Shown in pieces: positions 15,701-21,280 of a DNA stretch of 64,000 bases. The stretch is from an uncultured Pelagibacteraceae bacterium (lineage in GTDB: Bacteria; Pseudomonadota; Alphaproteobacteria; Pelagibacterales; Pelagibacteraceae): positions 1 through 64,000 of the forward strand of contig CACPMF010000001.1 of assembly GCA_902634935.1 (NCBI GenBank), written 5' to 3'. The notes below the pieces were generated by a model. The model was given only the letters and a program-made list of their open reading frames with translations, did not search any database and was not told the DNA's origin. A program made the position numbers and the translations under genes. The number at the start of each line of letters is the position of its first letter. The stretch's first letter is position 1.

Positions 15701-16255
15701 ATGAAAAAAATTATAATTTTTTTATTTTTTGTTTTTTTTAATAATGCTTATGCAGAAAAAATAAATAAATATTTTCATATTGGTCTAATGGAGTCTTATG
15801 ACAAAAAATTCACTCTTTATTTTAAGACTAGAGAAAAGGCTATAATTGCAAAAGGAGAGCATAGAAATTATCTCAATGATTACCCCCAAGACCTTTACAT
15901 TCATGACCATAAAACTAAGAAAGATTATCCTCTTATCTCTTATGAGTGGTTTCCAAATAGAGTAAAAAAAATTACAAACAATTTTGAATATCCAATGTTC
16001 CCTGAGGACTTTGCATATTATTTGTTAAATGATAATGATACATTGATATTAGTTAGTGCATCAAAAAATTTTTTTAAAAATCTTAAATTCAGTATTTCAA
16101 AAAAACATTCGTCTACTGCAAAATCAAACGGAAAATTAGAATTTATTGTTTCAAGTTTCGCAAAAAACTGTGGTTATAGAGATTTGAAAACAAACTTTGA
16201 ATGTAATATTTATAAGCCACTGATTTCAAAAAACTTAATTACATCTTTTGAGTAA
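15701..16255 (+). CDS. Secreted protein of unknown function
   Basis: A 184-residue protein with a clear signal peptide (MKKIIIFLFFVFFNNAYA, cleavage about residue 18). I do not recognise a family. The mature part is rich in aromatic and lysine residues, and has two cysteines close to the C-terminus (in KNCGYRDLK and FECNIYK) that could form a disulfide. It converges with ftsY and their 3' ends overlap by 17 bases. Probably periplasmic or outer-membrane associated. Confidence 0.65.
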   Translation: MKKIIIFLFFVFFNNAYAEKINKYFHIGLMESYDKKFTLYFKTREKAIIAKGEHRNYLNDYPQDLYIHDHKTKKDYPLISYEWFPNRVKKITNNFEYPMFPEDFAYYLLNDNDTLILVSASKNFFKNLKFSISKKHSSTAKSNGKLEFIVSSFAKNCGYRDLKTNFECNIYKPLISKNLITSFE

Positions 16256-17156
16256 ATACACTCGCGAATTGTTTTGCATCAAAAACTTGCAAATCATCTT
16301 CTTTTTCACCTAAACCAAGTCCAACAATTGGTATTTTATATTTTTTTGAGAGTGCAATTAGAATTCCTCCTTTTGCAGTACCATCTAATTTTGTCATTAT
16401 TAATCCAGAAACTGGAATAATTTTATTAAATTCCTCTAATTGATTAATAATATTTTGACCTGATGTTGCATCTAAAACAAGTATTACCTCATGCGGTGCA
16501 CCCTCAGAACTTTTTTTAACTACATTTCCTATTTTTTTAAATTCTTCCATAAGATTTTTTTTATTCTGCAGTCTTCCAGCAGTGTCTATCAAAACTTGAT
16601 TGATATTATTTTGCTTAGCATATTCAACAGCTTTAAATGCAACTGAGGCTGGATCAGAACCAGCGTTTGATTTTATAATCGTAGCCCCAACTCGATTTGA
16701 CCACTCCTCTAGCTGTTCAATTGCTGCAGCTCTAAAAGTATCACATGCAGAAAATATAACTTTATTGTGATTTTCAATAAAAATTTTTCCAATTTTACCA
16801 ATCGTTGTGGTTTTGCCTACACCATTAACACCTGAAATTAAAATAATATTCAAATTCTCTTTTTTTTCAAAAAAGTTTTTTTTTTCGAGTGGTTCCATAA
16901 GATTGATAATATATTCTTCAAGTATTTTATTAACCTCATTTACAGCATTATTTTTTGGATCAATTTTTTTTTGTGCTATTATTTCTTTTATTTCTGAAGA
17001 AGCATCAATTCCTACATCTGAGCTAATTAAGAATTCCTCAATTTCATCTAATGTTTTGTCGTCTATTTCTTTTTTAATTATTATTTCTCTTAGACCAGAA
17101 GCAATATTATCGGCACTTTTTTTAAATCCGATTTTAAATTTTTCAAAAATTCCCAT
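16239..17156 (-). CDS. ftsY: Signal recognition particle receptor FtsY
   Basis: A 305-residue SRP GTPase receptor that docks the Ffh-RNA-ribosome complex at the membrane. The N domain (about 1-95) is followed by the G domain with P-loop GVNGVGKTTTIGKIG, DTFRAAAIEQLEEW, DTAGRLQNK, TKLDGTAKGG and GLGEKEDDL. The acidic A domain of E. coli FtsY is missing, so it is the short form, with the first basic helix MGIFEKFKIGFKK likely to bind lipid. Its start touches the dapF stop. ffh lies on the opposite strand nearby. Confidence 0.96.
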   Translation of the reverse strand: MGIFEKFKIGFKKSADNIASGLREIIIKKEIDDKTLDEIEEFLISSDVGIDASSEIKEIIAQKKIDPKNNAVNEVNKILEEYIINLMEPLEKKNFFEKKENLNIILISGVNGVGKTTTIGKIGKIFIENHNKVIFSACDTFRAAAIEQLEEWSNRVGATIIKSNAGSDPASVAFKAVEYAKQNNINQVLIDTAGRLQNKKNLMEEFKKIGNVVKKSSEGAPHEVILVLDATSGQNIINQLEEFNKIIPVSGLIMTKLDGTAKGGILIALSKKYKIPIVGLGLGEKEDDLQVFDAKQFASVFTQKM

Positions 17157-17980
17157 TAAAGTTTAATTGTTATTTTTTGTATCTCCGAAATAGGACCTTT
17201 CATATGTATAAACTTATCTTGATCAATTTTTATTTGTAATCTTCCCAGTTTAAATTCTATTTCAGTGACTGTATTTTCCAATTCATCAATGTTAGCAGCA
17301 ACAGCTGTTGCACATGCAGCTGTACCACAAGCTTTTGTTAGTCCAGCACCCCTCTCCCAAACCTTTATTTTTATATGTTGGTTACTTATTTTCTGAGCCA
17401 ATGTAACATTGCATTTTTCTGGAAATATTTCATCATTCTCTATTTGTGAACCAATTTTTTTTAAGTCAAATAACTCAACATCATTTACAAAAAAAATTAC
17501 ATGGGGATTACCAACATTAATACCTACGCCTCCAGTAATTTTATTATTGTCAACATCTGAAATGGTTAATTCTAAATTTCTTGTATTCAATTCTCTATCA
17601 ATCGGGATATCCTTCCAATTCAGTTTTGGCTTTCCTATTATTGTTTCAACCTGTTTACTATCTAAAATTTTAGAATTAAGTATTTGATTATCAACATTTA
17701 AACTTATGTTTTTATTTTTCACCTCTTCTGAAATCAAATATGCAACACATCTTGTTCCATTACCACATGCTCCTGATGTACTCCCATCTGAATTATAAAA
17801 TTGCATTGAAGCATTTGATATAGTGCTATTTTGTATAAAAATTAATTGATCACATCCTAAAAAATTACGATCACAAATTTTTATAATTTGATCCTTAGTA
17901 AGACTTACTGATCTTTTTCTTTGATCAATAATGACAAAATCATTACCCAAACTGTCCATTCTAAAAGCATCAAATTCCAT
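17156..17980 (-). CDS. dapF: Diaminopimelate epimerase DapF
   Basis: A 274-residue PLP-independent epimerase converting LL- to meso-diaminopimelate for lysine and peptidoglycan. Both catalytic cysteine motifs are present: ACGNGTRC (Cys72) and KACGTAACA in the C-terminal half. The N-terminus FDAFRMDSLGNDFVIID matches the family. It is the first gene of a leftward dapF-ftsY pair, with a 1-base overlap. Upstream lies the GC-rich structured element that more probably belongs to ffh. Confidence 0.96.
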   Translation of the reverse strand: MEFDAFRMDSLGNDFVIIDQRKRSVSLTKDQIIKICDRNFLGCDQLIFIQNSTISNASMQFYNSDGSTSGACGNGTRCVAYLISEEVKNKNISLNVDNQILNSKILDSKQVETIIGKPKLNWKDIPIDRELNTRNLELTISDVDNNKITGGVGINVGNPHVIFFVNDVELFDLKKIGSQIENDEIFPEKCNVTLAQKISNQHIKIKVWERGAGLTKACGTAACATAVAANIDELENTVTEIEFKLGRLQIKIDQDKFIHMKGPISEIQKITIKL

Positions 17981-18041
17981 AGATTAAATACTTAACTTAT
18001 TTATTGACTTTTTGAACCTCTATTATAGTTTACCGAAGTTT

Positions 18042-18131
18042 CCGCAAAATACAGCAATTTGCGGTGTCTTTGGTAACAAAGAGATCGACACCAGTCAGCG
18101 AGGGTTCGCCCACTGGTGCGATACCTGCTGT
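18042..18131 (+). ncRNA. GC-rich structured RNA element upstream of ffh
   Basis: A GC-rich island in AT-rich DNA with several nested stems: CCGCAAA/TTTGCGG (18042-18048/18058-18064), GGTGTC/GACACC (18063-18068/18087-18092) capped by TTTG-GTAA-CAAA, CACCAGT/ACTGGTG (18089-18095/18112-18118) with GGG-TTCG-CCC inside, and a long-range ACAGCA/TGCTGT (18051-18056/18126-18131). Some stems exclude one another, as in a switch. The last strand ends eight bases before the ffh ATG, which has no Shine-Dalgarno motif. I recall a structured-RNA candidate named for ffh from P. ubique comparative work, but cannot verify that this is it. It lacks the GGAAG-type SRP core, so it is not obviously 4.5S RNA. Confidence 0.65.
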
Positions 18132-18139
18132 GTGAAATT

Positions 18140-19498
18140 ATGTTTGAAAATTTAACAAATAAATTTGAGGAAATTTTTTCCTCTTTAAAAAAAGCACCTT
18201 CTCTTGATGAAAAACAAGTAGATGAAGGATTGCGTGCTATTCGTCTCGCTTTATTAGAGGCTGATGTATCTCTAGATGTTGTAAAAGAATTCATAAACAG
18301 AGTTAAACCAAAAGCTCTAGGTAAGGAAATAGTAAGATCAACATCACCTGGGCAAATGGTTGTTAAAATTGTTTACGATGAACTTGTATCATTTTTAGGT
18401 GATAAAAATTCAGATATTCTACTTAATGCTGTTCCACCTGTTTCTATTATGTTAGTGGGATTACAAGGATCAGGAAAAACTACCACCACTGCAAAGCTAG
18501 CTAAATTTCTAGAAAAAAATAATAAAAAAAAAGTAATGATGGTTAGTCTTGATGTGTACCGGCCAGCTGCACAAGAACAATTAAAATTACTTGGTGAACA
18601 AAATAACATAATTACTTTACCTGTTATTGAAGGTCAATTACCTGCAGACATTTGCAGACGAGCTTTAAGTGCAGCAAACTTGAATGGCTCCGAGGTAATC
18701 ATTTTTGACACAGCAGGAAGAACTCAAATAGATCTCCAAATGATGAGTGAAATTAATCAAATAGAGGGAATTATAAATCCTTCAGAAACTATATTAGTTG
18801 CAGATTCTTTAACAGGTCAAGTTGCTGCAAATGTGGCTAAAGAATTTAAAAATACTGTAAATTTAACAGGTATAGTTCTTACCAGATCAGATGGTGACGG
18901 AAGAGGTGGTGCAGCATTAAGTATGAAGTATGTTGCAGATGTTCCTATAAAATTTTTGGGAATTGGAGAGAAAATAGATAATTTTGAAATTTTTTATCCT
19001 GACAGAATAGCAAATAGAATTTTAGGAATGGGAGATATCGTTTCTCTTGTTGAAAAAGCTGCTGAAGATATAGATCAAGAGAATTTAAAAAAAACTGAAG
19101 AAAAATTAAAAAAAGGTCAATTTTCCTTAGAAGACTATTTATCACAATTACGACAAATGAAGAAAATGGGTGGGATCGAGGGTATTATGTCTTTTCTGCC
19201 AGGTGTTTCAAAAATTAAATCTCAAATGGATGAAGCAGGTGTTGACGAAAAAATAATTACCCAAAATGAAGCTGTAATTTTATCTATGACTAAAAAAGAA
19301 AGAGAAAATCCAAAGATAATTGATGGATCTAGAAAGAAAAGAATTGCTAATGGCTCTGGTACTGACATTGCCACTATCAATAAATTGTTAAAACAATTTA
19401 AAATGATGTCTGAGATGATGAAAAAGATGTCTAAAGGAAATATGAAAGGAATGGCGGACAAAGGAATACCACCAGAACTTTTTAATCAACTTAAATAA
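18140..19498 (+). CDS. ffh: Signal recognition particle protein Ffh
   Basis: A ~452-residue SRP54 GTPase that binds signal peptides and 4.5S RNA. N domain first, then G domain with [45 protein letters not shown] and [10 protein letters not shown], then the methionine-rich M domain ([16 protein letters not shown] and [18 protein letters not shown]). I take the ATG at 18140 ([11 protein letters not shown]) instead of a GTG at 18116, because the latter adds eight residues that fall in the structured leader. Followed closely by the ribosomal protein operon. Confidence 0.97.
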
Positions 19499-19512: not shown

Positions 19513-19983
19513 ATGTTAAAAATGAGATTATCAATGGGTGGTACGAAAAAAAGACCTGTTTATAAAATTGTTGTTGCTGACAGCAGATTTCCAAGAGATG
19601 GAAGATTTATTGAAAAGCTAGGTTTCTTTAATCCGTTACTTCCAAAGGAAAAAAAAGAAAGAGTAGGACTAGACCAAGAGAGAATTAAATATTGGTTAAG
19701 TCAAGGAGCGCAACCAACAACTAGAGTTGCCAGAATTCTTGGTGAGAACCAGATAATCGAAATGCCAGCTAACGGAAATAACCCTATTAAAGCAGTTCCT
19801 AAAAAAGAAAGAAGCAAAAAAGATGGTGAAGGAGCGGAAGCAAAAAGTGAGACGAAATCAGATAATAATGCAGAAGCACCTAAAAAAGATGCTACAAGCG
19901 AAACACCAAAAAATGAAGATACCAAAGAAGCTCCTAAGGCTGAAGCTGCTCCAGAAGCTCCAAAGGGAGAAGAAAAAAAATAA
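19513..19983 (+). CDS. rpsP: 30S ribosomal protein S16 with long C-terminal extension
   Basis: The first ~80 residues are a standard bS16 ([20 protein letters not shown], then [31 protein letters not shown]). Residues ~95-156 are a low-complexity tail rich in Lys, Glu, Ala and Pro, making the protein 156 residues where about 80-90 is usual. The tail resembles the one on L19 in the same operon. A Shine-Dalgarno AAGGAG sits before the ATG at 19513; a second ATG three codons on is possible. trmD starts directly after its stop, without an intervening rimM. Confidence 0.95.
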
Positions 19984-20679
19984 ATGTTTAAGTCTCGAGT
20001 ATTTACTTTGTATCCAGACTATTTTCCAGGCTACCTAGAAAAAGGTTTATTTGGCAAAGCTATGAAGGAAAAAATTTGGAGTTTAGAAATTGTGGATATT
20101 AGAAATTATGCTGAGGATAAGCACAAGACGGTTGATGATACACCGTATGGCGGTGGTGATGGTATGATAATGAAAGCAGATGTATTAGCAAGATCATTGG
20201 ATAAAAATTTATCACAGGATGAAAAAATAATTTACCTAAGCCCAAAAGGAAAAATTTTTGATCATAGTTGTGCAAAAAGATTTTCAGAATTTGGATCAAT
20301 TAATTTTATATGTGGTCATTTTGAGGGTATTGATCAAAGGATAATTGATAGCAGAAACATAGAGGAAATAAGTATTGGAGACTTTGTTTTGTCCGGAGGT
20401 GAGACAGCTGTATTTGTAGTTCTTGATGCGATTTTAAGATTTGTTCCTGGTGTTTTAGGCAATGTGAACTCATCTAAAAATGAAAGTTTAGAAAATGGTC
20501 TTTTGGAATATCCTCAATATACTAAACCTCAAATTTTCGAGCAAAAAGGTGTGCCAGAAGTGTTATTATCAGGAGATCATGCCAAAATTAAAGACTGGCG
20601 TTTATCACAATCTGAGGCTATAACACGCGACCGAAGACCAGATTTGTGGGAAAAATATAAGAAAACTAAAAAAAACTAA
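19984..20679 (+). CDS. trmD: tRNA (guanine37-N1)-methyltransferase TrmD
   Basis: A 231-residue SPOUT methyltransferase that makes m1G37 and prevents frameshifting. Motifs: [12 protein letters not shown] at the N-terminus, [54 protein letters not shown] (the trefoil-knot AdoMet site) and C-terminal [15 protein letters not shown]. The ATG follows the rpsP stop codon without any gap and rplS starts one base after its stop. Normal length. Confidence 0.97.
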
Positions 20680-20680
20680 A

Positions 20681-21280
20681 ATGAAAAATATTGAAGAAAT
20701 CAATCAATCCATTGTAAAAAAAATTGTTTCTGAGAGAAAACATCCTGATTTTTTTCCAGGAGATATAGTGAAGGTTGGGGTAAGAATTACTGAAGGTAAA
20801 AGAGACAGAATTCAGTATTTTGAAGGAGTGTGTATTTCAAAAAAAAATAGAGATATAAACTCATCTTTTACTGTTAGAAAAATTTCATTTGGTGAAGGTG
20901 TTGAGAGAACATTTGCATTGTACAGTCCAATTGTTGATACAATTAAAGTTGTAAGATCTGGAAAGGTAAGAAGAGCAAAACTTTATTATCTAAGGGATAG
21001 AACTGGTAAATCAGCAAGAATAGCTGAAAAGATTAAAAAGAAAATTGGAATTGATATAGAAACAAAAATTCAACAAGTAAGTGAAGAAAATGTTTTGCCA
21101 GCAACAGATGAGAATTCAAAAGAAGTTCCAAAATCTGATGCAAGCTCTGATGAAGCTAAAAAAGAGGCAGTAGCAGAAGCCCCAAAAGAAGAAGTTAAAA
21201 AAGAGGCAGTAGCAGAAGCTCCAAAAGAAGAAATTAAAAAAGAGGAGCAAAAACAAGAAAGTCCCGCAGAGAAAAAATAA
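20681..21280 (+). CDS. rplS: 50S ribosomal protein L19 with repeated C-terminal extension
   Basis: Residues ~1-120 form bL19 ([62 protein letters not shown]). Beyond that is an 80-residue Lys/Glu/Ala/Pro tail, bringing the total to 199 where 115-130 is usual. The tail contains two near-identical 13-residue units, [13 protein letters not shown] and [13 protein letters not shown]. Last gene of the rpsP-trmD-rplS operon; leuC follows after 11 bases. Confidence 0.95.
21158..21235 (+). repeat. 39-bp tandem repeat inside rplS
   Basis: Two adjacent 39-base units (21158-21196 and 21197-21235) differ at two positions. Each encodes [12 protein letters not shown] plus V or I in the L19 tail. In frame, so copy-number change would only alter tail length. 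Confidence 0.85.

Follow-up and report, generated by a model that had tools for sequence, protein, structure and literature searches.

The window analyzed here, a 64-kb stretch of DNA from a SAR11 (Pelagibacteraceae) genome, carries a GC-rich island in AT-rich DNA between the divergently transcribed genes dapF and ffh. In this window, ffh is the first gene of an operon that continues with rpsP, trmD, and rplS (Table 1). Most of the Alphaproteobacteria surveyed have rimM between rpsP and trmD, but it is missing from that place here. On the other side of the island, ftsY and dapF (16239 to 17980) are encoded on the reverse strand, and the genes for the SRP receptor and the SRP protein flank the leader described below. 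The proteins encoded by rpsP and rplS in the window (19513 to 21280) have long low-complexity C-terminal tails rich in K, E, and A. The S16 protein of the order without detectable SRP genes that is considered below is also tailed, with APAAEVAPAP repeats (L288).

Table 1. Genes and leader features between dapF and rplS in the window.
Feature	Position	Strand	Remarks
dapF	17156-17980	-	divergent from ffh
Promoter TTGACT / 16-nt spacer / TAGTTT	18004-18009 / 18026-18031	+	conserved TTGAC position
P1 hairpin CCGCAAA/TTTGCGG	18042-18064	+	putative 5' end; last three pairs compete with the P2 base
P2 hairpin CGGUgUCUUUG/CAAAGAgAUCG	18062-18072/18077-18087	+	RNAalifold consensus; double-sided changes
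P3 hairpin, RF01793 core	18089-18118	+	7-bp stem 18089-18095/18112-18118
P3 inner part		+	C-C mismatch 18096/18111; A-C pair 18097/18110; GCG/CGC 18098-18100/18107-18109; loop 18101-18106
Conserved single-stranded tail	18119-18131	+	here CGATACCTGCTGT; class consensus T-rich, then [TC]T(T)GG
ffh	18140-19498	+	ATG at 18140; first operon gene here; TIGR00959 (NCBIfam), 572 bits
rpsP (S16)	19513-19983	+	TIGR00002; immediately downstream of the element in the SRP-less order
trmD	19984-20679	+	TIGR00088
rplS (L19)	20681-21280	+	TIGR01024

The island contains the stems CCGCAAA/TTTGCGG, TCTTTG/CAAAGA, CACCAGT/ACTGGTG, and GCGA/TCGC between positions 18042 and 18131. A sequence-only reading of this DNA had described at least four perfect or near-perfect stems in about 90 locally GC-rich bases. 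Both observations hold, since all of the named stems are present and the GC content is 0.50 to 0.52, compared with a window mean of 0.31. The region from 18025 to 18140 folds with a z score of -5.1, and none of 200 shuffled sequences was equally stable. The 92-nt element ranks within the 3 most stable of 4262 same-sized segments taken from both strands of the 64 kb.

The sole Rfam match in the window, found with cmscan, is to RF01793 ("ffh") at 18074 to 18126 (57 bits, E of 3.5e-8, against a gathering score of 35). The match lies upstream of ffh in a member of the Alphaproteobacteria (ATG at 18140, TIGR00959), it carries the two internal-loop cytosines (C18096 and C18111), and its stem covaries. 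The segment from 18089 to 18118 is thus a full member of RF01793 in a SAR11 genome, which bears out the suggestion in the sequence-only reading that this might be the ffh-associated RNA of P. ubique. The exact pattern of the element occurs in at least 80 contigs of the genome collection, and all of the matches listed are from Pelagibacteraceae or Pelagibacterales. Meyer et al. described the motif in 2009 as a single bulged hairpin before ffh, of unknown function, unlike the Ffh-binding part of 4.5S RNA and absent from Rhodospirillales and Caulobacterales (PMC2704228). A literature search found no study of the function of the RF01793 motif.

The RF01793 core is the third of three hairpins, P1 to P3, in a leader of about 100 nt behind a conserved promoter. 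Its anatomy was studied in 119 loci, taken from SAR11 relatives and from across the class. The two cytosines that make up the published P3 "bulge" face each other and are invariant in 61 of 61 unique hairpins. The position next to them, 18097/18110 in the window, is A-C in 41 of these hairpins, G-U in 5, C-G in 4, U-A in 3, A-A in 5, U-C in 2, and G-C in 1. In a family survey of 57 loci, two of which (L297 and L337) seem to have been picked incorrectly by the automatic procedure, the C-C mismatch is kept in 56 and the position beside it is C-G in 32, A-C in 16, U-A in 3, and G-U in 2. Because the opposed cytosines are invariant and the adjoining position varies, P3 comprises about 12 pairs and a single fixed C-C mismatch beside a covarying pair. 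An analysis of covariance, which had been proposed as a check on the stems, did find compensatory changes. Both-sided changes occur at 11 of the 12 pairs of P3, with a covariation score of 0.487 in the class-wide alignment versus 0.157 in shuffles, and at 5 of the 11 pairs of P2; many of the sequences are related, and these counts are of nonindependent events.

The G-U pair in the CGGU/AUCG base of P2 is invariant in SAR11 (45/45). The P2 region has a mean z score of -3.6 in SAR11 and -2.1 in other families, and the regions before the leader and after P3 fold no better than shuffles. P1 is paired in 93% of cells of the alignment of 45 SAR11 sequences and has a single pair with a double change. 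Downstream of P3, the tail motif [TC]T(T)GG sits about 9 to 12 nt after the hairpin. A downward extension of P3 by AUCG/CGAU was considered and rejected; it is present in the window and lost in many relatives.

The promoter lies at a nearly constant distance from these hairpins. TTGAC is found 70 to 100 nt before P3 in 115 of the 119 loci, where 0.027 would be expected per 30 nt, and a TA-rich -10 element mostly follows it at 16 to 18 nt. In the family survey, TTGAC lies 68 to 105 nt before P3 in 52 of the 57 loci, and in most families the interval is 72 to 97 nt. A simple sigma-70 consensus scan of the window did not call the promoter at 18004 to 18031. Transcription probably starts near 18038, given TTGACT at 18004 and TAGTTT at 18026. 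Together, the promoter, P2, and P3 make up a single unit. No intrinsic terminator was found on the plus strand of the window, and T residues after P3 are modestly enriched in other families (3.7 of 9 versus 2.2 expected).

The distribution of the element was surveyed with R1, a covariance model of P3 and its flanks, at a cutoff of E ≤ 0.001. Of 387 alphaproteobacterial genomes, 247 were positive with R1, whereas the Rfam model found the element in 112 of the same number; the refined structure yields a much more sensitive search model. The training set of R1 consisted of Rfam hits, and independent evidence therefore comes from the newly found families alone. Nearly every R1-positive genome has one copy. 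The operon-order survey covered element-bearing loci. Outside the SRP-less order, 56 family-level groups contributed one locus each, and one of them a further locus; ffh followed by rpsP lies downstream of the element in all 57. In nearly all of these loci, rimM, trmD, and rplS are also downstream, as far as the stretch reaches. For 20 family-level groups, the sampled genome is negative with the Rfam model, and yet the element heads ffh and then rpsP. In G298 (L328 and L361), no rplS was detected in the roughly 7.8 kb that follow trmD; the L19 gene is apparently split from the operon, and the element and rpsP stay together. No similar element was found at the ffh-trmD locus of Escherichia coli.

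One whole alphaproteobacterial order gave no match to Ffh or FtsY in any of the 10 genomes searched and no match to 4.5S RNA in the 5 members tested. The genomes are drafts of 1.0 to 1.4 Mb from three genera (G099, G205, G286, G354, G416, and G447-G451). Ffh and FtsY were sought with PF00448, which detects both proteins; it matched 14 of 14 controls and two or more proteins in each of 7 comparison genomes, AT-rich SAR11 included. RF00169, the model for 4.5S RNA, gave one match in each of the same 7 comparison genomes. The SRP is regarded as universal, and no account of an alphaproteobacterial order without it was found in a literature search.

One family of this order has five genomes (93 to 97% complete) in which the element stands directly before rpsP without ffh, and a search with the Ffh protein of the window gave no match in those five genomes. 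Across the order, the promoter, P2, and P3 are kept directly before rpsP in 8 of the 10 genomes; no element was found in the other 2 drafts. All eight elements are followed by an rpsP start that reads MAVKIR or MSVKIR, and S16, RimM, TrmD, and L19 were confirmed by Pfam. The gene dapF is still divergent upstream of the leader (L289), and therefore it is the stretch between the leader and rpsP that has no ffh. The C-C mismatch is kept in eight of eight elements. In P3, GCG/CGC has become ACG/CGT, a compensated change, and the P2 base reads CGGU/AUCG, CAGU/AUUG, or CAAU/AUUG in different members. These pairs would not persist if the promoter alone were needed, and the leader structure itself is under selection in the SRP-less order. 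This order is a single lineage known from draft genomes and thus amounts to one natural experiment.

We propose, with a probability of about 0.5, that the element forms a structured 5' leader on the alphaproteobacterial ffh-rpsP-rimM-trmD-rplS transcript and mediates control of the autogenous type, with S16 as the favored effector. The target is most likely the ribosomal operon rather than ffh alone, because the unit stays before rpsP where ffh and ftsY were not found. A protein would recognize P2 and P3 and lower the output of the operon when in excess, and the constant parts presented to it would be the C-C mismatch, the GCG/CGC stem, and the UUGG tail. The likeliest effector would be a protein encoded by the operon itself. 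S16 would be preferred over L19, since one family showed no rplS close to the operon, whereas rpsP never leaves it. The constant neighbor of the element is indeed rpsP; rplS is less constant, and the SAR11 cluster analyzed here is without rimM. Because its spacing from the promoter hardly varies and its spacing from the start codon does, the element would act during or soon after synthesis of the leader, through RNA stability, pausing, or attenuation, and not by masking the start codon.

An autogenous leader heads an operon with r-protein genes, as this element does (rpsP and rplS), and the L19 leader of Firmicutes is an example of this kind. Resemblance to an rRNA site is common in such leaders but not universal. 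When R1 was compared with E. coli 16S and 23S rRNAs, the best score was 8.3 bits, without the hairpin, so that mimicry of an S16 or L19 site is not apparent. Alternatively, the element may act on ffh in most species and have a different role in the SRP-less order.

Other explanations of the leader have to be weighed against this reading. The sequence-only reading proposed that two mutually exclusive folds toggle ffh translation and stand in for a Shine-Dalgarno motif, which now seems extremely unlikely. The two alternative pairings it named, GGTGTC/GACACC and ACAGCA/TGCTGT, can both form in the window, but neither is conserved: the former has no double-sided change and one pair broken in 15 of 45 sequences, and the latter is paired in 55.6% of cells, below the value for shuffles. 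In addition, the sequence and shape of P1 differ between families. A different competition, of P1 with the base of P2 for CGG, is suggested by one coordinated change from G-C-G to A-U-A in three sequences; the window favors the P2 form by 3.2 kcal/mol. This evidence is too thin to support a switch. As had been noted, ffh in the window lacks a Shine-Dalgarno motif (the stretch before the ATG at 18140 is TGCTGTGTGAAATTATG). Replacement of that motif by the element is unsupported, because sister SAR11 lineages and the SRP-less order have the element together with GGAG or AAGGA sites (AAGGAG before ffh in SAR11 family f2 and AAGGA before rpsP in the SRP-less order) and because P3 lies anywhere from 6 to 292 nt before the start codon across families (median, 50). 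Regulation of ffh translation by Ffh or SRP RNA bound to the leader, as considered by Meyer et al. and in the sequence-only reading, is very unlikely. The element precedes ffh nearly everywhere, its sequence has GUCAG in common with helix 8 of 4.5S RNA, and leaders pair with their own 4.5S RNA 1.3 kcal/mol better than with swapped ones (permutation P of 0.04, with relatedness uncontrolled). However, the distance to the ffh start is not conserved, and the position beside the C-C mismatch, so often C-G in the family survey (32/57), is unlike the invariant symmetric loop of 4.5S RNA. The dedication to Ffh assumed earlier is also at odds with the order in which no Ffh, FtsY, or 4.5S RNA was found, where the element was not lost together with the SRP (8 of 10 genomes keep it). 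Because it is kept there before rpsP with compensatory changes, SRP sensing cannot, on this comparative evidence, be its general function. Mimicry of or pairing with 4.5S RNA was likewise rejected as a candidate: GUCAG alone is shared, the duplex test is weak and confounded, and the idea is moot in an order without a 4.5S match.

The remaining alternatives leave ffh translation aside. The leader may be the source of a stable trans-acting small RNA, with ffh and rpsP merely downstream. Such a role is unlikely, although the motif was detected in metatranscriptomic small-RNA data (Meyer et al., PMC2704228) and, by RNA-seq, among the expressed sRNAs of Bartonella bacilliformis (PMC7717549), and although its own promoter, its variable spacing to the open reading frame, and the extra T residues after P3 would suit a small RNA. 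The element is never away from the operon head in the 57 loci and the SRP-less order, and T-runs are weak or absent in SAR11, which leaves no clear terminator there. It is also improbable that the leader is a ligand-free 5' stabilizer, or a pausing or antitermination structure, that acts on RNA polymerase or RNases and both increases and adjusts the operon mRNA. The fixed promoter distance, the stacked hairpins at the presumed 5' end, and the conserved T-rich/UUGG tail are consistent with such a structure, but a mere stabilizer need not keep an invariant C-C mismatch (61/61; 56/57) or an almost fixed GCG/CGC stem over such distances.

Control of the autogenous type would give this RNA a new context. 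An orphan since its description in 2009, the motif was assumed to be SRP related; an SRP-less lineage that keeps the RNA before rpsP separates the two. The finding directs attention to the only r-protein operon that, according to a 2024 review, has no known control (PMC10931766). If the proposed reading is correct, Alphaproteobacteria would couple the production of Ffh to ribosomal protein synthesis via one leader RNA. A more specific version, which we regard as tentative, is that the "ffh" motif is misnamed and is a trmD-operon leader bound by S16 (or L19) through the C-C-mismatch hairpin, placing Ffh under ribosome-assembly control, and that targeting capacity would thereby follow ribosome number.

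The element can be compared with three known systems. With 4.5S RNA (Bacteria_small_SRP, RF00169), it has in common the sequence GUCAG in one strand of an internal loop. In contrast to the element, 4.5S RNA is encoded by a separate gene in 40 of 42 relatives, and neither an RF00169 match nor its helix 8 signature was found in the window, in agreement with the earlier observation that the element has no SRP RNA signature. In the draft genome of the window itself (79% complete), 4.5S RNA was not found, and the divergent copy of its close relatives is near the score limit. In SAR11 genus g1 (L095-L099), the genus of the window, 4.5S RNA is strongly divergent, with scores of 33.9 to 36.6 bits in several members, below the Rfam cutoff, and an apical loop of AUCUUAACGGAAGCAG in place of GGAA; it is therefore easily missed by annotation.

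With RF01793 as published (PMC2704228), the element has in common its place before ffh and the two invariant cytosines, and the window element is full length at 57 bits. The published motif is one bulged hairpin of the ffh gene. The single C-C mismatch, the covarying pair, and the covarying P2 that precedes P3 go beyond that description, as do the fixed promoter distance, the roughly 2-fold reach relative to the Rfam model, and the association with the operon rather than with the SRP. Leaders of the autogenous r-protein type, for example the rpsB leader described by Meyer et al., differ from the element, whose binding protein is hypothetical, which showed no look-alike in E. coli rRNA, and which mostly has ffh as its first gene. 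The element shares with them a structured 5' leader before an r-protein operon, its occurrence once per genome, and covarying stems with fixed unpaired residues.
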